From a virus, in IMG/VR virus record IMGVR_UViG_3300045796_000003, positions 1 through 34,622 of that record: DNA of 34,622 nt. The stretch is one strand, 5' to 3'. The notes under the pieces are model-generated. The model was given only the letters and a program-made list of their open reading frames with translations, did not search any database and had not been told where the DNA came from. Each line of letters begins with the position of its first letter. Within the stretch, counting starts at the first letter, position 1. Of this stretch, positions 9,818-34,622 are shown in pieces. Made by a program: the position numbers and the translations under genes.

Positions 9818-10444
9818 ATGAATATTTCTGAAATGAACATCAAACACCCTAAAAAGGTGGTCGTTCCGATTGAAGCCGGATTGGCATGGGGCGAGGATGG
9901 CGCGATTTATCAGCAGAAGTACGATGGCGAGTTCCGCGTAATGTCTTTGCCTGATTGCAGCATTCTGGTTGGCGAGCAAATCGGCACCCGGTTTATTGCC
10001 TTTGATTGCGTCTCGTTTGTCGGCCTGGATGTCCGTAACTGCCCGCTGACCCAACGCATTAAATACCGCGATGAACTTTGCTACCGGAACCACATTGATC
10101 ACGCTGTGGAATTCGCAAACGGCAGCGCATTGCTGGCCGAAGTCCTTTTAGCTGGCGGTGAAGGCGTGGTGCGGAAAACTAAGGATTCCACCTACTACGA
10201 AACGATGATTGCTTGCAAGCGTTCACAAATCTTCATCTGTCGCATTACAACCAGCAGCCCAAAGCAATCCGCTTCAATCACGGACGTTCAAACTGGCGTA
10301 TACCTTGGCCATGTCCCAATGCTCGGCGGAAAAGCCGATCAAGTCCGCGTGGGGTCCATTATCCGAGTCGAGGCCGAAACAGTTCACTCAAGCGGTAAAC
10401 TTCGCGGTGCCAAATTGTGCCGCGAGTGGTTGGTTAAATACTGA
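9818..10444 (+). CDS. Minimal ATP-dependent DNA ligase
   Basis: A 208-residue protein with the DNA ligase motifs in order: motif I QQKYDGEFR at 32-40 (predicted nucleophile Lys34), a reduced Ia-type GE at 52-53, motif III FIAFDCVSF at 59-67, motif IV GGEGVVRK at 113-120 and motif V MIACKR at 130-135. Residues 136-208 (QIFICRI to REWLVKY) fit an OB-fold. It would seal nicks in phage DNA. It is much shorter than usual minimal ligases (about 270-300 residues), because the spacing between motifs I and III is only about 25 residues. First gene of a plus-strand cassette and 13 bases before queC. Confidence 0.8.
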   Translation: MNISEMNIKHPKKVVVPIEAGLAWGEDGAIYQQKYDGEFRVMSLPDCSILVGEQIGTRFIAFDCVSFVGLDVRNCPLTQRIKYRDELCYRNHIDHAVEFANGSALLAEVLLAGGEGVVRKTKDSTYYETMIACKRSQIFICRITTSSPKQSASITDVQTGVYLGHVPMLGGKADQVRVGSIIRVEAETVHSSGKLRGAKLCREWLVKY

Positions 10445-10457
10445 AACAAAAAACATT

Positions 10458-11027
10458 ATGATTCCAAAAACAATCATTCACCTCCTTTCTGGCGGGCTGG
10501 ATTCCGTTACAATGCTTTACGATTTAAAAGCGCAAGGGCACTTCGTCCATTGCCTGCTTTTTGACTACAAGCAAAAGCACGTTCAGGAATTAACGTTTGC
10601 AAAGGCGCATTGTCATCGGCTTGGGGTTCTTTTCACAACGATGGAGCTTCCTGCCCTGAATGGGCTAACCGATGAAAATTGGGTTGTTCCAAATCGCAAC
10701 GCCATTATGCTTTCGCTGGCGGTCAATGTAGCCGTTCAGGCTGGCGCGGACACAATCACTTACGGATGCAATAAAGATGACGCGGACTATCCGTTTCCAG
10801 ATTGCACGCTTCCATTTATTCAGGCCATGAATAAGGCCGTGGAATCGGCTGGATACAAGATCGAGATTTGCGCTCCATATCTCAATAAATCAAAAGCATG
10901 GATTGGCGGATTTGCTCAAGAAATCGGAGTGCCAATCCATGAGATTTGGTCCTGCTATAGGGGTGGGCCTATCCCATGTGGAACGTGCCCTGCATGCATT
11001 AAGTTGCAATCCGCAATCGGAAAATGA
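10458..11027 (+). CDS. queC: 7-cyano-7-deazaguanine (preQ0) synthase QueC
   Basis: A 189-residue enzyme from ATG 10458 (leader aaaaacattATG). QueC converts 7-carboxy-7-deazaguanine and ammonia to preQ0 using ATP. Visible hallmarks are the PP-loop SGGLDSV at 11-17, FDYKQKH at 35-41, VVPNRNAIMLSLA at 76-88 (family PGRN-type segment), DDADYPFPDC at 107-116, and the zinc ligands Cys166, Cys174, Cys177 and Cys180 in CYRGGPIPCGTCPAC. It is slightly shorter than the E. coli enzyme. No folE, queD or queE is visible, so the precursor would come from the host or from genes outside the window. The stop overlaps the start of the DpdA-like gene. Confidence 0.9.
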   Translation: MIPKTIIHLLSGGLDSVTMLYDLKAQGHFVHCLLFDYKQKHVQELTFAKAHCHRLGVLFTTMELPALNGLTDENWVVPNRNAIMLSLAVNVAVQAGADTITYGCNKDDADYPFPDCTLPFIQAMNKAVESAGYKIEICAPYLNKSKAWIGGFAQEIGVPIHEIWSCYRGGPIPCGTCPACIKLQSAIGK

Positions 11028-11653
11028 GGCTGTACATGGGGCAATCCAACCGCATTTGGCATTACTGGTCTGGGAAATACCCCGGTTCAGTTGGTGTTTT
11101 GATCGGGCCAAGCTATGGCAAGAAAGTTCCGATTGACGAATGGATGCCGTTCGTTTTGGATAACGACGCATTTACTTGCTGGACCCAGAAAAAGCCGTGG
11201 CCAATTGCACCCTGGCAGGAAATGTTTTCTTGGGTTAAGATGCGAGGAATAAAGCCGGAATGGGCGGCGGTGCCAGACGTTGTCGCAGACCGCGAACGCA
11301 CGATTGAAAATTGGCCTATTTACTCTCCAATTGTAAAGCGAATGGGTTGGAGTACAGCTTTTTGCGTTCAAGACGGAATGACACCATCGGATGTTCCAAA
11401 AGATGCCGATGTTGTTTTTGTAGGTGGAACCGATGGGTGGAAGTTCCGCTATCTAAAAACTTGGACAGATAATTTCCAACGTGTTCACTGCGCCCGCGTC
11501 AACGCAATACGATCAATCGAAATGTGCGAGCAACTTGGATGTGAATCAGTTGACGGAACTGGATGGTTTCGCGATCCGTCACGAATAGACAAAATACCAG
11601 CAATTAAAGCATTTATTGAAGGCAAAAGATCAAGCCAATTAACGCTCATATGA
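11024..11653 (+). CDS. dpdA: DpdA-like DNA 7-deazaguanine transglycosylase
   Basis: A 209-residue protein coupled to queC by ATGA. It resembles phage DpdA enzymes, relatives of tRNA-guanine transglycosylase that exchange guanine in DNA for preQ0 or derivatives. Segments supporting this are VLDNDAFTCW (44-53), EWAAVPDVVAD (79-89), CVQDGM (114-119), VFVGGTDGWK (131-140), VHCARVN (154-160) and ESVDGTGWF (174-182). The PD, QDGM, GG.xxWK and R.N elements are what I recall of the phage DpdA group. Predicted effect: protection of phage DNA from restriction. It is short relative to tRNA enzymes. The exact modified base cannot be told from sequence. Confidence 0.75.
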   Translation: MRLYMGQSNRIWHYWSGKYPGSVGVLIGPSYGKKVPIDEWMPFVLDNDAFTCWTQKKPWPIAPWQEMFSWVKMRGIKPEWAAVPDVVADRERTIENWPIYSPIVKRMGWSTAFCVQDGMTPSDVPKDADVVFVGGTDGWKFRYLKTWTDNFQRVHCARVNAIRSIEMCEQLGCESVDGTGWFRDPSRIDKIPAIKAFIEGKRSSQLTLI

Positions 11654-23765: not shown

Positions 23766-24005
23766 TTACGACCGCGACCCCGACCGCGACCACGACCGCG
23801 ACCCCGACCGCGACCCCGACCGCGACCCCGACCACGACCCCGACCACGACCCCGACCCCAACCCCGACCGCGACCACGACCGCGACCGCGACCGCGACCC
23901 CGACCGCGGCCACGACCCCGACCGCGACCGCGACCACGACCCCGACCCCGACCCCGACCACGACCCCGACCATTCGAATCCAGCACGCAATATTGATGCG
24001 TTCAT
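23766..24005 (-). CDS. Possible low-complexity Ser-(Gly/Arg/Trp) repeat protein
   Basis: A 79-residue frame starting MNASILRAGFEW and continuing as Ser alternating with Gly, Arg or Trp to a stop at 23766. Its ATG overlaps the upstream stop as TAATG, the same coupling used by genes at 24544 and 24959, and it ends 13 bases before ATG 23752. This makes it the best-placed frame through the repeat. In this frame the variable base of each hexamer changes the amino acid. It could be a flexible linker-like protein, or the repeat may be untranslated. Confidence 0.35.
   Translation of the reverse strand: MNASILRAGFEWSGSWSGSGSGSWSRSRSGSWPRSGSRSRSRSWSRSGLGSGSWSGSWSGSRSGSRSGSRSWSRSGSRS
23769..23972. repeat. 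Hexanucleotide tandem repeat (CGACCN)34
   Basis: About 34 copies of a 6-bp unit CGACCN, where N is G, C or A but never T on the plus strand. Only two units depart elsewhere (CAACCC and CGGCCA). All three minus-strand frames and at least two plus-strand frames are free of stops. On the minus strand the unit reads as Gly-Arg, Ser-(G/R/W) or Val-(G/A/V). Nothing comparable occurs elsewhere in the window. Confidence 0.95.
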
Positions 24006-28432: not shown

Positions 28433-28630
28433 TTAAAACCAACGGCAGAGAATGAATTTGCGCCATCCGGTTGCCGACTTGGCAACCGATTCCAGAACGG
28501 CGGAATGATGATTTGAATCACGTTCAATCTTGTCCAGTTGCTTGCCAAGCGCGGCAAGGTTGGCTTCTGCTTTTTCAAATTGTGTCCAATCCACTTTTGC
28601 GGGATAGAAATTTCGATAGTCGTTTTTCAT
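28433..28630 (-). CDS. Small hypothetical protein with AACGACT leader (65 aa)
   Basis: A 65-residue protein starting MKNDYRNFYPAKVDWTQFEK, then a helical region (KAEANLAALGKQLDKIERDS) and an aromatic basic C-terminus (TGWRKFILCRWF). Its leader, ttaaacgactATG, is the same motif that precedes most plus-strand genes to the right, which argues that it is real and expressed together with the early genes. It is followed by a terminator. It diverges from the gene at 28942. Function unknown. Confidence 0.6.
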   Translation of the reverse strand: MKNDYRNFYPAKVDWTQFEKAEANLAALGKQLDKIERDSNHHSAVLESVAKSATGWRKFILCRWF

Positions 28631-28941
28631 AGTCGTTTAATTTGTTTGTATTCCAACAATAATCTATCTGGCAATAAATGCAAGCGTTAATTCAAAAATT
28701 CTTTTGCGTATATATATCCGGTCATTCTGTCTGCCTGTTTTCCGGCCCATCGCCCATTTTCCCGCTCAATTATTCGCTAACACAATTGTTTATTCAAATA
28801 TTGGGATGCTAATCTGTCCAATGTTTACGCTGGTTTTAATTGATTTGAATTTAAATTGAAATAATTGTTGCAAACTTTATTCAATCGCGTATATTGATTG
28901 TGTCCCGGCAGTCCCGGGGCGAAACGAAATAAACGACTATT
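28631..28941. other. Divergent intergenic region
   Basis: About 310 AT-rich bases between divergent genes. It holds the AACGACT leader of the left gene (minus strand, 28631-28638), a promoter-like TTGCAA-16-TATATT on the plus strand at 28868-28895, a short GC palindrome CCCGGCAGTCCCGGG, and the AACGACTA leader before ATG 28942. No ORF is convincing here. Confidence 0.5.
28868..28895 (+). promoter_or_regulatory. Possible promoter for the right-hand plus-strand genes
   Basis: TTGCAA (28868-28873), a 16-base spacer and TATATT (28890-28895), about 47 bases before the first plus-strand start codon. Four of six bases match the -35 consensus and five of six the -10 consensus. Confidence 0.4.
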
Positions 28942-28949
28942 ATGAAAAA
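28923..28949 (+). repeat. 27-bp leader repeat, copy 1
   Basis: Identical to 29860-29886. It spans the AACGACTA leader, the ATG and the first codons of the gene at 28942, so the same start region heads two different genes. Confidence 0.85.
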
Positions 28950-29439
28950 AGAAATGCAAGTGCTGGTGGAGGTTTGCGGGATTTTTTCCCGCAACCCCAC
29001 AGTGGACAACTGTGGAGCGGTGGAGCAGGCGCTGGCCAACTTGGCCGAGCTTAACAAATGCCACACGGCCGACGGCAAGCCGGCCCCGGCGTGGAGCCAG
29101 GCGGTTCATCCCCACATCTCCGCTTTTGCGGAGATGAGGACGGGATTCATTAACGAGTCCAATCAATTTCAAGCAACCGGCTCTGCAATGGGCCGGAAGT
29201 CTTGGCGCGGTCATGATGCAGAGACTCCAGTCAAATGCTACATCAAGCGGCTTAAATGGGTGGATGGTGACTACGACGAGCAAGGCGCGTATTGGGGCGG
29301 CGGCAATGGCGATTTCATTTACTGGGCAAATTTTGACATCGGTGAAACCAATGAGGATATTTTTGTCCGCGCGTACACCCGCGACGAAGCCAAGGAGGAA
29401 ATCCGCAAGCAACTGCCGATGGCCAAATTTTTCAACTAA
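28942..29439 (+). CDS. Conserved phage protein, hairpin-rich 5' part
   Basis: A 165-residue protein from ATG 28942 with leader aaacgactattATG. The C-terminal half (VKCYIKRLKWVDGDYDEQGA, then YWGGGNGDFIYWANFDIG and FVRAYTRDEAKEEIRKQLP) belongs to a small conserved family found in phages and plasmids with no known function. The first 70 codons look atypical and carry several strong hairpins in the DNA (28974-29136), so an internal start may also be used. First gene of the plus-strand right arm. Confidence 0.65.
   Translation: MKKEMQVLVEVCGIFSRNPTVDNCGAVEQALANLAELNKCHTADGKPAPAWSQAVHPHISAFAEMRTGFINESNQFQATGSAMGRKSWRGHDAETPVKCYIKRLKWVDGDYDEQGAYWGGGNGDFIYWANFDIGETNEDIFVRAYTRDEAKEEIRKQLPMAKFFN
28974..29136 (+). 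other. Cluster of strong hairpins inside a coding region
   Basis: Three perfect inverted repeats in 163 bases: TTGCGGG/CCCGCAA (28974-28980/28988-28994, A-T6 loop), CCACAGT/ACTGTGG (28997-29003/29009-29015) and CATCTCCGC/GCGGAGATG (29115-29123/29128-29136, TTTT loop). A weaker GGCCG/CGGCC pair lies at 29067-29085. Such density is unusual for coding DNA and suggests a structured mRNA. Confidence 0.7.
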
Positions 29440-29458
29440 CCTTTAACCTGACAACATT

Positions 29459-29770
29459 ATGAGCAAATTTGCTAAAACATTCACGGAACGGCGCAATCTG
29501 CTGGCTGACATAGTCAAAAATCCGCGCGTATGGCCGGGATGCTACGATAAATTAGCAATCACCAATGACGGCGAAATTTTGTGCGCCGATTGCTGCCGGA
29601 AAAACGGGGCACGCATCATGTCAGACATTCGCGACAATTGCGACACTGGCTGGCTTGTGGTTGCGCTGACGTATGAGGCTGTGTCTGCCGATGACTGCCG
29701 CGATGGACATGACGATTTGATTTCCAATTGCGCGCATTGCCATGCGGAGTTTGGGGAATTTGGCTGCTAA
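29459..29770 (+). CDS. Cys-rich conserved phage protein
   Basis: A 103-residue protein (MSKFAKTFTERRNLLADIVK) with leader ctgacaacattATG. It has NPRVWPGCYDKLAITNDGEI, then LCADCCRK, a DIRDNCDTGWLVVALTY segment and a C-terminal NCAHCHAEFG. The pattern VWPGCY..xAITxDGxxLCxDCC...IxxDIRDxxxxGW, ending in a zinc pair, belongs to a small phage/plasmid family of unknown function. The cysteine pairs probably hold zinc. It lies 19 bases after the previous gene. Confidence 0.7.
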   Translation: MSKFAKTFTERRNLLADIVKNPRVWPGCYDKLAITNDGEILCADCCRKNGARIMSDIRDNCDTGWLVVALTYEAVSADDCRDGHDDLISNCAHCHAEFGEFGC

Positions 29771-29836
29771 TCGGGTTTTACACTCTGGATTCATTCTTGA
29801 ATTCAGACTGTAGTATCTGACAAACAAAAAACGACT

Positions 29837-29869
29837 ATGAAAACAACTTTACCCGCAACAACGAAATAA
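29837..29869 (+). CDS. Ten-residue minigene with a full AACGACT leader
   Basis: aaacgactATG opens MKTTLPATTK followed by TAA. The stop lies inside the second copy of the 27-bp leader repeat. It may be a leader peptide, or the start of a gene whose body was lost when the repeat recombined. A gene this short cannot be proven from sequence. Confidence 0.25.
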   Translation: MKTTLPATTK

Positions 29870-29886
29870 ACGACTATTATGAAAAA
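29860..29886 (+). repeat. 27-bp leader repeat, copy 2
   Basis: Identical to 28923-28949; it heads the gene at 29879 and includes its ATG and next codons. Confidence 0.85.
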
Positions 29887-30259
29887 CTACAATTCCGCCG
29901 GGTTATCAAGTGAATCGTGCGCTTTTTTGGACAAGGCCAAATCGCTTGAGGATGCGTACAAATTGGACAGCGTGAAAGCGTGCCAAAAGGCGCTGCGCAT
30001 CACGCGGGGCATTGATGAACGCGAACGGCTAGAAGTTATCGACCGGCTTTTGGCGACATGCGGGACGGAAGCCATTGGAGGCGAATGGCAGAACGGTTTT
30101 TGGTGCGATATTGTCGCAGCCTATTGCAACACGGGGGACACATACGCCGTTACCGTTATGGCGATTCGGGGCGAATGCCGCTATGATTCAAGCCGGTTTA
30201 TCGTTTCATCCTTTGGTGATTGGATTGAACGGCATGGGGAAAAGATGGGTGTTCAATAA
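29879..30259 (+). CDS. Conserved small phage protein
   Basis: A 126-residue protein from ATG 29879 (MKNYNSAGLSSESCAFLDKA), leader aaacgactattATG. The C-terminal part, GFWCDIVAAYCNTGDTYAVT followed by RFIVSSFGDWIER, matches a small family seen in phages and plasmids (AYCNTGDTYAxT ... GDWIE), of unknown function. The N-terminal half is helical. It follows the ten-residue minigene and the repeat. Real because of leader, family resemblance and length. Confidence 0.65.
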   Translation: MKNYNSAGLSSESCAFLDKAKSLEDAYKLDSVKACQKALRITRGIDERERLEVIDRLLATCGTEAIGGEWQNGFWCDIVAAYCNTGDTYAVTVMAIRGECRYDSSRFIVSSFGDWIERHGEKMGVQ

Positions 30260-30298
30260 TCGGACGGCGATATTGTTGACACTGAGATTTGGTCAGTA

Positions 30299-30362
30299 GT
30301 TTGATTTCATCACCCTGCCATGGGGAAACGCATGGCAGGCTAATGCAATCGAAGATTGCAGA
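30299..30362 (+). repeat. 64-bp two-hairpin leader repeat, copy 1
   Basis: Identical to 31157-31220. It contains a 9-bp stem CCTGCCATG/CATGGCAGG (30314-30322/30331-30339, loop GGGAAACG) and a 7-bp stem TGCAATC/GATTGCA (30344-30350/30354-30360, GAA loop), followed after about ten bases by AAAACGACTAACATTA, upstream of the gene at 30395. Confidence 0.9.
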
Positions 30363-30394
30363 CAACAATTAAAACGACTAACATTACAAATTGT

Positions 30395-30976
30395 ATGATT
30401 GAATTATCAAAAAATGCGGGTATCAACTGGGCTGGGCGGTTGAATTCCAACCGCGATGAAAAGACTGGTTTCCGCTATGGGGTGATCAGCCAAAATGAAA
30501 TCTCCCAAGCGTGGTGCGACAGTGCAGAAGCGGACTACGGTGATCCTCATTGCCCCAAGTGCGGCCGCCAAGCGGACAAGCTGGAAGCGTTCGGTGAAAC
30601 GTTTGCCAACGGGATACCCAACGAATTCACCACGGAGCCCCACGAATGCGACGAATTTGCTTGCATGGATTGCAACCATGTTTTTGGTTCTGAGTCTGCC
30701 TTTGGGGACACGCCTAATGGCTTCTATTATGACGGTGACGGATACGCGGCCGCATGCGGGGAAGATGGTGATATTTTCGTTACTAAATCCCCCTATTTCA
30801 CGTACGCCCAGTTTTGCAGTCCGTGTGCCCCCGGTGCCTGCTATTTGATTCACCCGGTATCGGCCGAAAATGCGGACAATCGGTGCTACTGCTTTGGTCA
30901 CGACTGGTTTGAAGATGGCGCTGCCCCGTACCCGGTCTATTCTGTCGAGACTGGAGCCGAAATTTTACCCGCTTAA
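30395..30976 (+). CDS. Cys-rich conserved phage protein
   Basis: A 193-residue protein from ATG 30395 (MIELSKNAGINWAGRLNSNR). A TTG at 30356 would start inside the repeat and is rejected. It has FRYGVISQNEISQAW, then HCPKCGRQADKL and FACMDCNHVFGSES, forming a zinc ribbon, and YAQFCSPCAPGACYLIHPV near the end with CYCFGHDWF. This RTGxRYGVI ... QFCSPCAPGA layout recurs in phage genomes without known function. The AACGACTA leader lies 14 bases before the ATG rather than next to it; the usual ATG position reads ACA. Confidence 0.7.
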   Translation: MIELSKNAGINWAGRLNSNRDEKTGFRYGVISQNEISQAWCDSAEADYGDPHCPKCGRQADKLEAFGETFANGIPNEFTTEPHECDEFACMDCNHVFGSESAFGDTPNGFYYDGDGYAAACGEDGDIFVTKSPYFTYAQFCSPCAPGACYLIHPVSAENADNRCYCFGHDWFEDGAAPYPVYSVETGAEILPA

Positions 30977-30980
30977 GACT

Positions 30981-31034
30981 ATGGCCCACCAAGAGGGCAA
31001 TGAAAAGCTTGTCGTGAATGTTTTCCCGCTTTGA
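30981..31034 (+). CDS. Possible 17-residue minigene
   Basis: A frame MAHQEGNEKLVVNVFPL opens at gactATG, a shortened form of the AACGACT leader, five bases after the previous stop. A second gactATG at 31048 opens only nine codons. Both may be decayed genes or leaders in the space before repeat copy 2. Confidence 0.2.
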   Translation: MAHQEGNEKLVVNVFPL

Positions 31035-31156
31035 AATATATGAGACTATGCCTCATTTTTGGCCGGTGGCAAATTAGGGTTAATTGGCCGGATACTGGCT
31101 TTTTCAGGCTTAAGCAATTCCAGACGAAAAACGGCAAAATGCGGTGGAAAAATTGG

Positions 31157-31220
31157 GTTTGATTTCATCACCCTGCCATGGGGAAACGCATGGCAGGCTA
31201 ATGCAATCGAAGATTGCAGA
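31157..31220 (+). repeat. 64-bp two-hairpin leader repeat, copy 2
   Basis: Identical to 30299-30362. Hairpins lie at 31172-31197 and 31202-31218. AAAACGACTAACATTATG follows and starts the DUF932 gene at 31245. Here the leader motif adjoins the ATG, unlike copy 1. Confidence 0.9.
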
Positions 31221-31244
31221 GTAAACAATAAAACGACTAACATT

Positions 31245-32339
31245 ATGGCACACGAATTATCAATTCAAAACGGCATTGCGGAGGTGGTTTGCGGTTCAAA
31301 TCAAACTCCTTGGCACAATCTTGGCACGGTGGTTGCCGGCCTGATGACCGCGAAAGAAGCTTTGGAAAAAGCGCACTTGGCTTGGGAAGTCGCAGGCATG
31401 CCGGTTACCGTCAATGGCAATGTCCTGCCGTTTCCTAACGCTGACAAGCGTGGGGAAACATGGCAGGGTATCACGCGGCAAGACACTGGCGCGTGCTTGG
31501 GGATTATGAGGGGTCAATATGAATGCATTCAGAATGCTCAAGCATTCCAATTTTTTGACAACTTGATCGGGCAGGGGGAAGCGGTCTATGACACTGCCGG
31601 GGCACTTCGCGGGGGGAAACAAGTTTGGCTGCTGGCCAAAATTGACGGGATCAAGAAAATTAACGGCGATGACCATAAAACCTATGGCCTGATGATTACC
31701 TCCCATGACGGCAGCTATGCGTTGCAAGTCCAATATGTAGTCGAGCGTGTGGTTTGCGCTAATACGCTTTCCATCGCGCTGTCCGGCGCAACAAATACTT
31801 GCAAGGTCCGCCACACGCGCAACTGGAAGAATGGAGAAGCGGAAGCTGCCCGCGTGCTGAATTTGGGCGAGCATTATTTCAAGCAAGTCCAAATTTCGCT
31901 TGAGGGGATGAACGAGCAAATGCTCAATCCTGACCAAATGGCCGAATTCACAAACCTTTTGCTCCCGGCCCGCAACGGCGACGATGACAAGGCGAGCACG
32001 CGCACCAAAAATATCCGCTCGGAAATTGCAGGCTTGTTTGAACGCGGCGCGGGGAATTTGGGGAAATCGCGGTGGGATGCATTGCAAGCGGTGTCCGATT
32101 ATGCGGATCACAACATGACTATCCGGGGGGAAAATTCTACCCGGCTCGAATCATCGCTGCAAGGCGCGGCAGCAACGATGAAACAGAATGCCTATGACAT
32201 CCTGACGAATGAAGACATCATGGGGAATTTGATGGCGCGCAAGTTCCGGCCAATTCCGGTTGCCAAGATTGAACCGACTGCTGATTTTGGCATTGAACCG
32301 CATAACCCATTTTTGGCTTTGCTCAACAACAAGAATTAG
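31245..32339 (+). CDS. DUF932 phage/plasmid-like protein
   Basis: A 364-residue protein from ATG 31245 (MAHELSIQNGIAEVVCGSNQ), leader aaaacgactaacattATG. It matches the DUF932 (TIGR03299, phage/plasmid-like) family in length and layout: TPWHNLGTVV near the N-terminus, GACLGIMRGQYECIQNAQAF and FFDNLIGQG, YVVERVVCANTLSIAL near 170, and a helical C-terminal half. The biochemical role is unknown; members occur in phage early regions and on plasmids. An in-frame extension to 31059 runs through the repeat and is rejected because ATG 31245 has the motif. Longest plus-strand gene. Confidence 0.8.
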   Translation: MAHELSIQNGIAEVVCGSNQTPWHNLGTVVAGLMTAKEALEKAHLAWEVAGMPVTVNGNVLPFPNADKRGETWQGITRQDTGACLGIMRGQYECIQNAQAFQFFDNLIGQGEAVYDTAGALRGGKQVWLLAKIDGIKKINGDDHKTYGLMITSHDGSYALQVQYVVERVVCANTLSIALSGATNTCKVRHTRNWKNGEAEAARVLNLGEHYFKQVQISLEGMNEQMLNPDQMAEFTNLLLPARNGDDDKASTRTKNIRSEIAGLFERGAGNLGKSRWDALQAVSDYADHNMTIRGENSTRLESSLQGAAATMKQNAYDILTNEDIMGNLMARKFRPIPVAKIEPTADFGIEPHNPFLALLNNKN

Positions 32340-32362
32340 GCGGTTGCTTAGTCGTTTCCACC

Positions 32363-32428
32363 ATGCCGGAAGTTACTAACGGCAAAACTTTAAAACAAAT
32401 AATCAACCGTTTCGCGGCAAAAGCCTGA
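32363..32428 (+). CDS. Possible 21-residue peptide
   Basis: A frame MPEVTNGKTLKQIINRFAAK plus Ala opens at 32363 (tttccaccATG) and ends TGA, 23 bases after the DUF932 stop. Basic and helical. It lies in an otherwise empty 158-base gap, followed by another short frame. Weak evidence. Confidence 0.25.
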   Translation: MPEVTNGKTLKQIINRFAAKA

Positions 32429-32432
32429 ATCC

Positions 32433-32501
32433 ATGCTGGTTCAAATCCGGCGCAAATTTAAGCCATACCACCGCGAAACAAAACACCACAAAACAACATG
32501 A
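32433..32501 (+). CDS. Possible 22-residue peptide
   Basis: A frame MLVQIRRKFKPYHRETKHHK plus TT ends in a TGA that overlaps the ATG of the gene at 32498 (ATGA). The coupling suggests it may be translated as a leader, but the length and absence of a leader motif keep confidence low. Its DNA contains a tRNA T-arm-like sequence (32435-32451). Confidence 0.25.
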   Translation: MLVQIRRKFKPYHRETKHHKTT

Positions 32502-32704
32502 CACGACACGAAAGAAAACAAGCGCGCAACCAACGTTTCGCGCAACTGGAATCAATTAAACAAGCTGCCACGATTGCAGCCAAACAGCGTGAGGATGCGG
32601 AATTGCAACGGCTGGCTGAATATTTGGCTACGCATCCAGTTTCGACTGGCATCATCCCGCTGGTTGATTATGTTCCTCCCGTGGGGAATTATTGCCGAGC
32701 CTGA
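32498..32704 (+). CDS. Small helical basic protein (68 aa)
   Basis: A 68-residue protein (MTRHERKQARNQRFAQLESI), leader caaaacaacATG. It is a strongly charged helix to about residue 45 (KQAATIAAKQREDAELQRLA), then a Pro/Val-rich tail (GIIPLVDYVPPVGNYCRA). It could be a nucleic-acid- or protein-binding adaptor. No family recognised. The DNA contains one TGGGGAA motif (32681). Confidence 0.6.
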   Translation: MTRHERKQARNQRFAQLESIKQAATIAAKQREDAELQRLAEYLATHPVSTGIIPLVDYVPPVGNYCRA

Positions 32705-32766
32705 TTTTTACGCCCTGACTTCGCGCAAGTGAAGCCAGGTTGTAACAATCAACTAATAACGACTAT

Positions 32767-33045
32767 ATGAAAAAACGCATTCAAGATTTGATAACTAGCC
32801 ATTCATTTGACCAAGTAGAATCCATGTTGCATCGCGGGTTAATCGGGCAATCCACTTTCGAAGCCTATTGCGCCGTGTGGACATGGATTAATTTTCGCGC
32901 ATCAAATACGGTCATGGCATCCGACAAGCAAGACCGTTTTTGGGGAAAATATGGCAAGGATGCTTTTTACCGGCGCGTTAATAAGGTGCGTGCCGCCTTT
33001 GGATGCGAGCCGCTCGTTATCAATTTTCCGCGTGTAACCCGATGA
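32767..33045 (+). CDS. Hypothetical protein (92 aa)
   Basis: A 92-residue protein starting MKKRIQDLITSHSFDQVESM with leader taacgactatATG. Helical N-terminus, then a Trp-rich region (YCAVWTWINFRA) and DRFWGKYGKDAFYRRVNKVR, ending INFPRVTR. Basic overall, compatible with DNA or RNA binding. No known family. One of the group of small genes with AACGACTA leaders. Confidence 0.65.
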   Translation: MKKRIQDLITSHSFDQVESMLHRGLIGQSTFEAYCAVWTWINFRASNTVMASDKQDRFWGKYGKDAFYRRVNKVRAAFGCEPLVINFPRVTR

Positions 33046-33054
33046 TTTAAACAA

Positions 33055-33102
33055 TATGCCAACTACTCATATCCCGAAACATTTTAACGACTATGAAAAT
33101 TA
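33055..33102 (+). CDS. Possible 15-residue leader peptide
   Basis: A frame MPTTHIPKHFNDYEN overlaps the first ten bases of the next gene; the codons for NDYEN are spelled by the AACGACTATGAAAAT leader itself. It may be a coincidental frame or a leader that couples translation to the gene at 33093. Confidence 0.2.
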
Positions 33103-33383
33103 AACAATCCGATTATGACTCGCTTAAGCGCGAACTAGCTGCGATTCAGTTGGAAAAAATCGTTGCTCATCGCGCCTTTTTGCTTTCCGACAAGTGCGCC
33201 AACAAGCCGAAAGATTTAATGATGCGGCTCCGGTGGGATGCTTTGCATTCGCTTCGCATGGGGAATTGGATGTCTGAAAACTTGTATACCTATTTGAACG
33301 ATGAACACATTGACACGGCGTTGAAACAAATCGCTTGCGAACTTTGGCCGGATACTTTCAACGCGGCAACCATGGGGAAATGA
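33093..33383 (+). CDS. Hypothetical protein (96 aa)
   Basis: A 96-residue protein (MKIKQSDYDSLKRELAAIQL) with leader tttaacgactATG. Helical, with KLKRELAA-like N-terminal helix, DLMMRLRWDALHSLRM and a C-terminal helix ending AATMGK. The stop codon and last codons contain a TGGGGAA motif (33372). No family recognised. It is followed after three bases by another small gene. Confidence 0.65.
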   Translation: MKIKQSDYDSLKRELAAIQLEKIVAHRAFLLSDKCANKPKDLMMRLRWDALHSLRMGNWMSENLYTYLNDEHIDTALKQIACELWPDTFNAATMGK

Positions 33384-33386
33384 TCT

Positions 33387-33590
33387 ATGCACAATCATCC
33401 AACATTAACGCCTGACCAGCTTGGGGAAATGCAACGATTGAAACAGTATTTCCCGTTCCGAATTGTTTTTGGCGCAATACTGCCCGGTGGGGAATTTGCT
33501 TGCGGTGCCGTTCTTAATCGCAGAGAGCCGAACAAATTGGCCAGGAATGGCGCAAAGGTTTGGACGCTGGATTCACCAAAGAAACCTTGA
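33387..33590 (+). CDS. Hypothetical protein (67 aa)
   Basis: A 67-residue protein (MHNHPTLTPDQLGEMQRLKQ), with YFPFRIVFGAILPGGEFACG and a C-terminal KVWTLDSPKKP. Its ATG lies three bases after the previous stop (within tgatctATG). Contains two TGGGGAA motifs. It resembles small phage proteins of unknown role. Confidence 0.6.
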   Translation: MHNHPTLTPDQLGEMQRLKQYFPFRIVFGAILPGGEFACGAVLNRREPNKLARNGAKVWTLDSPKKP

Positions 33591-33609
33591 ACCGTGGGGA
33601 ATTTGAACC

Positions 33610-33873
33610 ATGAAAACAATACTCGAAACCGAAATTAACGGCCAAACTCTTTATCTGTCAAACGATGGACTTGCCACTGACAGAATAGAAAACGCGAAAG
33701 AATTCAGATGCCTTTCCGATGCGACGATTGAATCTGTCCACCTGCGGTCGGATGAGTCTTGGGGAAATTGGGGAATTCGGTTCACGCCAAAGCGTGTTCT
33801 GTTTTCCGAGCAGCAATCCATCGTGGCAGGCTATTTCTCCTTTGACCGCTCGCATTGCAAATCTCACCGTTAA
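33610..33873 (+). CDS. Hypothetical protein (87 aa)
   Basis: An 87-residue beta-type protein (MKTILETEINGQTLYLSNDG) with SVHLRSDESWGNWGIRFTPK in the middle. The segment ESWGNWGIRF is spelled by two adjacent TGGGGAA motifs. A third motif lies just upstream of its ATG and a fourth just after its stop. No known family. Confidence 0.55.
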   Translation: MKTILETEINGQTLYLSNDGLATDRIENAKEFRCLSDATIESVHLRSDESWGNWGIRFTPKRVLFSEQQSIVAGYFSFDRSHCKSHR

Positions 33874-33958
33874 ATCCGTGGGGAATTCGCAAAATAAAGC
33901 TTGCAATAATTAAACAATCAACGTATCATTCGATAAACCATTAACAAGACAAAACAAC

Positions 33959-34622
33959 ATGTGTGATTTTCACAGCATTTTAGGCGTTGCCATCGGCGAC
34001 ACGTACGAAATCCGGCATGACGCCAGCAACAGCCATTCCATCATGGCTGGCAGACTGGAGAACAAACCAAACCGCAAGCCAATCATCTTCGAGTCCGAAT
34101 GTTCGGCAGAAAAAATGATTGGCGGGGATTTGGACTACATTAAATCGTCCATCATCCGCAACTATGGCGAGTGCCCGGAGCCATTGGTTCGCAAGATTGT
34201 GGCTCATTACCAAAAGGTCAAAGAGGCGATTACCGATGGCCGACATCTATCATCCACCGGCTACTTTTCTGACACAGAGAAATATGCGGACGTGTGGCAG
34301 GAGGCAATGAGTCGTGGAATTATGCCAGACTTTTCTGGCATAACCAAGTTTCATGGCTCCGTGGATGTCCATCAGGGGGCCACGTTCACCGCGCCCGTGC
34401 TTAAGGAAATTTCCGGCTCCGTGTATGTCCATCAGGGTGCCACGTTCACCGCGCCCGGGCTCGCGAAGTGCGGATCCGTGGATGTCCATCAGGGAGCCAC
34501 GTTCACCGCGCCCGTGCTTAAGGAAATTTCCGGCTCCGTGGATGTCCATCAGGGGGCCACGTTCACCGCGCCCGGGCTCGCGAAGTGCGGCTACGTGTAT
34601 GTCCATCAGGGTGCCACGTTCA
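33959..34622 (+). CDS. Repeat protein, 3' end outside the window
   Basis: An open frame from ATG 33959 (MCDFHSILGVAIGDTYEIRH), leader aaaacaacATG, still open at the right edge (221 codons). The N-terminal domain (about 1-125) belongs to a phage protein type with ENKPNRKPIIFESE and NYGECPEPLVRKIVAHYQKV. From about residue 133 it becomes repeats of 20 and 19 residues, GSVDVHQGATFTAPVLKEIS alternating with a form ending APGLAKC. Such repeats in this protein type probably fold as a beta-solenoid. Function unknown; surface or adhesion roles are possible. Confidence 0.7.
   Translation, partial: MCDFHSILGVAIGDTYEIRHDASNSHSIMAGRLENKPNRKPIIFESECSAEKMIGGDLDYIKSSIIRNYGECPEPLVRKIVAHYQKVKEAITDGRHLSSTGYFSDTEKYADVWQEAMSRGIMPDFSGITKFHGSVDVHQGATFTAPVLKEISGSVYVHQGATFTAPGLAKCGSVDVHQGATFTAPVLKEISGSVDVHQGATFTAPGLAKCGYVYVHQGATF
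34355..34622 (+). repeat. Alternating 60/57-bp tandem repeats
   Basis: Units start at 34355, 34415, 34472, 34532 and 34589, alternating 60 and 57 bp, so the higher-order unit is 117 bp. The 117-bp units differ at very few bases, indicating recent duplication or homogenisation. The array runs off the window. Confidence 0.95.

Follow-up and report, generated by a model that had tools for sequence, protein, structure and literature searches.

Repeated Asymmetric Sequences in Phage Genomes

The T4 RegB sites are GGAG words found in early messages, mainly in ribosome-binding sites, and the start-associated sequences of the cluster K mycobacteriophages are a repeated asymmetric sequence which precedes the start codons in gene arrays. 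Chi, KOPS and DNA-uptake sequences are short, polar and over-represented, are tolerated within genes, and change position while their density is kept; they are genome-wide and host-encoded. The stoperators of the cluster A mycobacteriophages (L5, Bxb1, TipsytheTRex) are asymmetric sites of ~13 bp, present in 20–30 copies per genome. They are found for the most part in promoters and in short gaps between genes, oriented with transcription, and their motif drifts between related phages (PMC6550527, PMC9283540). Here we describe the hexanucleotide GGGGAA in the IMG/VR virus contig IMGVR_UViG_3300045796_000003, of which the whole analyzed stretch of 34.6 kb is called the window. GGGGAA is a real and strongly selected signal, apparently an undescribed one, and literature searches returned no description of it. 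The signal is confined to a single gene block and to its sense strand, where it occurs in coding and non-coding DNA without preferred spacing or RNA fold. It is selected over codon choice, its density is kept in several relatives, and the presumed initial part of the block is free of it.

GGGGAA in the Window

Within positions 29,753–33,885, GGGGAA occurs 22 times on the plus strand and never on the minus strand (as TTCCCC). Seventeen of these sites read TGGGGAA, and neither TGGGGAA nor its complement TTCCCCA is found in the remainder of the 34.6 kb on either strand. Outside the block, there are two GGGGAA on the plus strand and three on the minus strand, and the motif is depleted there (2 versus 8 expected, P = 0.0025). 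The initial annotation had described about 22 plus-strand copies, mostly TGGGGAA, with a rare complement and few copies elsewhere; this description holds, as the interval 29,750–33,890 contains exactly these 22 sites and no TTCCCC, and its positions were correct within 1–2 bases.

The features concerned are listed below. The sites come from the motif count (sites 3 and 5 also from the repeat analysis), and the block from open reading frames (ORFs), a domain match and motif counts.

28942..33913, +, motif-bearing gene block: at least 10 small plus-strand ORFs including DUF932; the sense strand carries GGGGAA
29753..29758, +, GGGGAA site 1 (TGGGGAATTTG)
30236..30241, +, GGGGAA site 2
30322..30327, +, GGGGAA site 3, loop of repeat copy 1
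30758..30763, +, GGGGAA site 4
31180..31185, +, GGGGAA site 5, loop of repeat copy 2
31452..31457, +, GGGGAA site 6
31575..31580, +, GGGGAA site 7
31613..31618, +, GGGGAA site 8
32051..32056, +, GGGGAA site 9
32060..32065, +, GGGGAA site 10
32127..32132, +, GGGGAA site 11
32222..32227, +, GGGGAA site 12
32683..32688, +, GGGGAA site 13
32942..32947, +, GGGGAA site 14
33260..33265, +, GGGGAA site 15
33374..33379, +, GGGGAA site 16
33423..33428, +, GGGGAA site 17
33489..33494, +, GGGGAA site 18
33596..33601, +, GGGGAA site 19, intergenic
33761..33766, +, GGGGAA site 20
33770..33775, +, GGGGAA site 21
33880..33885, +, GGGGAA site 22, intergenic

The chance expectation of about one copy, given in the initial annotation, fits the base composition (1.3) and understates the local context: dinucleotide shuffles give 2.5 copies (maximum of 9 in 1,000), and the coding sequences of the block hold 18 sites against 5.9 ± 1.9 after shuffling of synonymous codons (maximum of 12 in 2,000). 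The observed count therefore exceeds both kinds of matched shuffles. An unbiased scan in windows of 4.5 kb puts GGGGAA at the top of all strand-specific hexamers of the stretch. Most of the other high-scoring hexamers inspected in the scanned genomes belong to tandem or other short repeats, which GGGGAA does not. Variants with one mismatch show no enrichment unless they overlap the motif itself. The 18 coding sites use all three codon phases (8/3/7), and the other 4 of the 22 are intergenic.

The block encodes a DUF932 protein (31245–32339, E = 4.6e-47), and its other genes are small orphans. The structural genes lie on the minus strand of the window and include a portal (E = 7e-40) and a protease-capsid fusion; the terminase was identified through its relatives. 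The DNA of the block had 0 matches among 50,697 phage records.

Conservation in Distant Relatives

Searches of IMG/VR with the DUF932 and large proteins retrieved no relative of the right arm, and the portal and capsid were therefore used as queries, which makes the choice of relatives independent of the motif. The portal search of GTDB genomes gave no match. The contigs closely matching the window are short and none spans the right arm, so the conservation rests on distant relatives. The record G001 (54.5 kb; portal ~50% identical) has 25 GGGGAA on the plus strand and 0 on the minus strand in 24.9–29.9 kb. G028 (61.3 kb) has 28 sense and 0 antisense copies in 2.6–10.8 kb; its capsid gene is divided between the two contig ends, which suggests a circular, near-complete record, and no exact terminal repeat was found in it. 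G019 (60.3 kb) carries about a dozen copies in one block, at a sense to antisense ratio of about 11:1, and outside this block the motif is depleted (1 versus 12.4 expected). Smaller clusters also occur near the contig ends of G020, G005 and G031. G034 and G022 were not counted as independent: G034 has the same sequence as G001 wherever the two overlap, and the block genes of G022 that were compared match those of G019 at 100%.

No cluster is present in G010, G014 or a contig of a Verrucomicrobiales metagenome-assembled genome (MAG), and the status of G016 and G029 is ambiguous. The motif cluster is thus a property of part of the clade; the loss in relatives, named in the initial annotation as evidence against selection, applies to some relatives and not to others. 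In G016, nine GGGGAA on the plus strand and 0 on the minus strand lie at ~9.2–14.2 kb (L054), in genes that precede the portal, the terminase among them. Those genes are transcribed with the structural genes, and their motif copies may or may not be the same signal. A scan of viral contigs for three close copies of TGGGGAA, of which 80 of at least 120 loci were examined, gave mostly tandem or protein repeats among the matches listed; the best dispersed case among them (L107) is weak against its own composition.

In G001, G028, G019, G005, G020 and G031, the block adjoins the structural genes and is transcribed against them. The island of the window in the equivalent place (9.8–11.7 kb; ligase-like gene, QueC and another gene) has 0 GGGGAA, and the cluster sits in a different block, transcribed away from the structural genes. 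The block genes of the relatives vary (DnaN, DUF6573, WGR, MT-A70 and DUF4942 methyltransferase; AAA ATPase, DUF2201) and differ from the DUF932 and orphan genes of the window. Therefore, the motif follows the transcription unit, not the gene family or map position. In the G019 block (L050, L049; record positions 39.4–42.7 kb), three small ORFs related to one another, with MSPFT.ELE...GGPPHIIG followed by Gly-Phe/Tyr/Asp-rich repeats sit between the cargo genes, and a G-rich repeat occupies a similar place in G005.

Selection on Nucleotides

The excess over codon shuffles is found in four genomes: the window, G001, G019 and G028. When these are pooled, 36 of the 64 Gly-Glu dipeptides in the blocks (56%) are spelled GGGGAA, versus 4 of 204 (2%) outside (Fisher P = 1e-22), where the genes are mechanical ORFs of at least 90–100 amino acids. 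The Gly-Glu pairs themselves are 2–3 times commoner inside the blocks than outside, so the motif shapes the protein as well as the codons. Across five phages, the homologous WGR/ligase-like genes gained the motif by substitutions, with no insertions and mostly at different positions; a single site of eight is common to G001 and G028. The density is maintained while the positions turn over. A tandem or mobile repeat was rejected as the source, since homologous genes gain the motif without insertions and the site contexts are distinct, except for two 64-bp copies. The three phases, the intergenic sites, the codon shuffles, the Gly-Glu spelling and the substitution-only gain support the view of the initial annotation that the target of selection is DNA or RNA rather than a protein motif.

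The same observations bear on the possibility that there is no functional signal, and that local composition, codon usage, a protein repeat or biased mutation produced the pattern. The sense strand of the block is mildly G-rich (skew about +0.1 at 30–32 kb) and GGG codons are common there. However, the dinucleotide and codon shuffles, the Gly-Glu spelling and the recurrence in distant relatives oppose composition, codon usage and a protein repeat, and GGGG without AA is not enriched. We know of no sequence-specific mutation process confined to one operon, and the lack of a functional signal, by whichever of these routes, is very improbable.

Consensus and Distribution of the Sites

The logo over 106 sites reads GCG[T/G]GGGGAA[A/T]TT, in which the way the logo was built fixes the core. 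When matrices were trained on the remaining phages, with thresholds set where antisense matches were none or almost none, they recovered at least 20 sense sites in the blocks of the window, G001 and G028, and 9–10 in G019. Thus, the extended asymmetric consensus holds across phages in the leave-one-out test. The spacing of the sites is random, and a regular or helical spacing was rejected. A Shine-Dalgarno or start-associated role was rejected as well (6 sites upstream of starts versus 4.2 by shifting, P = 0.25). The association with gene ends is weak (13 versus 5.9, P = 0.003) and absent in G028. The presumed first 0.7–3.7 kb of each unit, with starts taken from gene orientation, is free of the motif (P = 0.02, 0.008, 3e-5 and 0.25 in the four genomes). 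Intergenic sites make up 4/22 in the window and 1/25, 1/11 and 5/28 in the other genomes, and none is near a presumed promoter.

This distribution bears on the comparison with stoperators, whose like is the main rival, ranked next after a reading of the message. Here, a phage repressor or similar protein would bind an asymmetric double-stranded site of ~13 bp, halt RNA polymerase arriving from one direction, and silence the block. The window, G001 and G028, with 22, 25 and 28 oriented sites and 0 antisense, resemble such genomes in having more than 20 asymmetric sites, all oriented with transcription, and the consensus differs slightly between related phages, as in cluster A (PMC6550527, PMC9283540). 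G028 encodes an integrase and may therefore be temperate. On the other side, stoperators occupy short intergenic spaces and promoters, whereas 18 of the 22 window sites are inside genes, in all codon phases of one block, and none lies at a presumed promoter. The region of G028 with RecT and the integrase, likely the lytic early region, is almost motif-free. The GGGGAA core consists of six near-fixed bases. Stoperators are bound by the immunity repressor of the phage; the scanned proteins here include no helix-turn-helix repressor, and one member has a match to a PHROG annotated as a transcriptional regulator. Such a roadblock is unlikely, but deserves to be kept in view.

A second possibility is a polar signal for DNA processing (a primase or recombination site, or a sequence like Chi or KOPS) serving the replication or recombination of the region. 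A G-rich, asymmetric word in a single orientation, conserved by density with turnover of positions, would suit it, and the blocks hold replication and modification genes, e.g., DnaN, with RecT encoded by G028. The host bears on this reading. The sole relative of QueC in a scan of 84,980 species genomes is on the Verrucomicrobiales MAG contig, and the terminase and DUF932 protein encoded there are likewise related to this phage group. The host is therefore probably a member of Verrucomicrobiota, although a phage contig can be mis-binned. The extended motif is at the chance level in 96 genomes of Verrucomicrobiota (11 matches), a host group assigned through these related genes, and the MAG of the candidate host shows no high density of TGGGGAAW (257 copies over both strands of 5.4 Mb). 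GGGGAA is limited to one block of 4–8 kb of phage DNA, at 2–5 copies per kb, and does not extend over a whole replichore. It is depleted in the rest of two phages, and the map position of the block differs between the window and its relatives. Mapping of the replication origin by GC skew was uninformative. The block confinement and the chance level in candidate hosts disfavor genome-wide signals of the Chi, KOPS or uptake type, and a DNA-processing role is improbable. Among the candidates of the initial annotation, the host Chi- or KOPS-like and genome-wide replication signals lose ground, while the binding site of a phage protein and the mRNA signal both stay in consideration.

A Proposed Signal Read Along Transcription

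The reading we favor, with a probability of roughly 0.4, treats GCG[T/G]GGGGAA[A/T]TT as a polar cis-acting signal that belongs to a single transcription unit of the phage and is read in the transcribed direction, most likely in RNA. The message is preferred as the thing read because the sites run throughout the coding sequence and late messages avoid the motif in two phages; the depletion outside the block in the window and G019 would follow if the tag had to be kept out of late messages. The motif would act by number, not by fixed position, and the RNA that is read would most likely be mRNA, either nascent or completed. The reader may be an RNA-binding protein, an endonuclease or a base-pairing RNA, encoded by the phage or the host; in one sub-case, it would be a base-pairing RNA with a UUCCCC seed. 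The message of the operon, its distal part especially, would be marked for its own control of elongation, stability or decay, separate from late messages. The T4 RegB sites are comparable, since they too form a short, G-rich word on the sense strand of one particular class of phage messages, but GGGGAA lies mainly in coding sequence and is not enriched at gene starts.

Several observations weigh against this reading. The RNA accessibility at the 106 sites shows no excess (mean percentile 0.47, standard error 0.03), and the Rfam-type family search at the block gave no accepted match, just a sub-threshold chance match. Outside the blocks of G001 and G028, the motif is neutral, its depletion not being significant. 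The analyses identified no trans-acting factor for the motif, and the operon limits and the early or late timing are taken from gene orientation.

A structured RNA element was rejected, given no accessibility bias and no accepted Rfam match. The presentation in hairpin loops was likewise rejected as a general feature, with no fold preference at the 106 sites, and the hairpins of the 64-bp repeats are therefore exceptions:

30299..30362, +, 64-bp repeat copy 1; hairpin CCTGCCATG-GGGAAACG-CATGGCAGG
31157..31220, +, 64-bp repeat copy 2, 100% identical to copy 1

Each forms a 9-bp stem with an 8-nt loop, and GGGGAA lies at the 5′ side of the loop in both; the initial annotation had also placed it in these loops. 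A gene start follows a short way downstream of each copy. The 18-base hairpin core gave 3 matches in viral contigs, approximately the chance expectation.

Other Features of the Window

The start-associated sequences of cluster K differ from GGGGAA, which does not precede start codons. Their better analogue in the window is the separate leader AACGACTA, located at 28623 and 28636 (−) and at 28933, 29831, 29870, 30374, 31233, 32759 and 33087 (+). On either side of the divergent region, it precedes start codons by at most ~25 bases, with 7/8 plus-strand copies in the right arm, and it is rare in the relatives. It looks like a start-associated sequence private to the window phage.

The plus-strand genes at 9818–11653 encode a ligase-like protein, QueC and a third product of 209 aa, which has no Pfam match and is reminiscent of tRNA-guanine transglycosylase-like enzymes; a 7-deazaguanine DNA modification is possible for this set. 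An array of the hexanucleotide GGNGTC is found at 23781–23967 (−), within a gene having homologues in nine other genomes of the clade. A repeat array with 57/60-base spacing (GGATGTCCATCAGGG...) occupies 34354–34622 and runs off the right end.

Implications for Phage Gene Control

Set beside the described systems, GGGGAA may be an operon-wide tag, present at the density given above through the coding sequence of a single unit and shaping both codons and amino acids, by which a candidate factor tells the RNA of the operon, or the polymerase transcribing it, from other phage messages. We propose this tentatively, as a possibility somewhat short of even. A dispersed signal that overrides codon and amino-acid choice across a whole operon is of a rare kind, and to our knowledge few nucleotide signals of this sort have been described. 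If the messages of one operon are indeed marked in this way, it would represent a new layer of phage gene control. The 13-base sequence (GCGTGGGGAATTT) provides a clear bait for finding the factor in this uncultured phage group, which probably infects Verrucomicrobiota.

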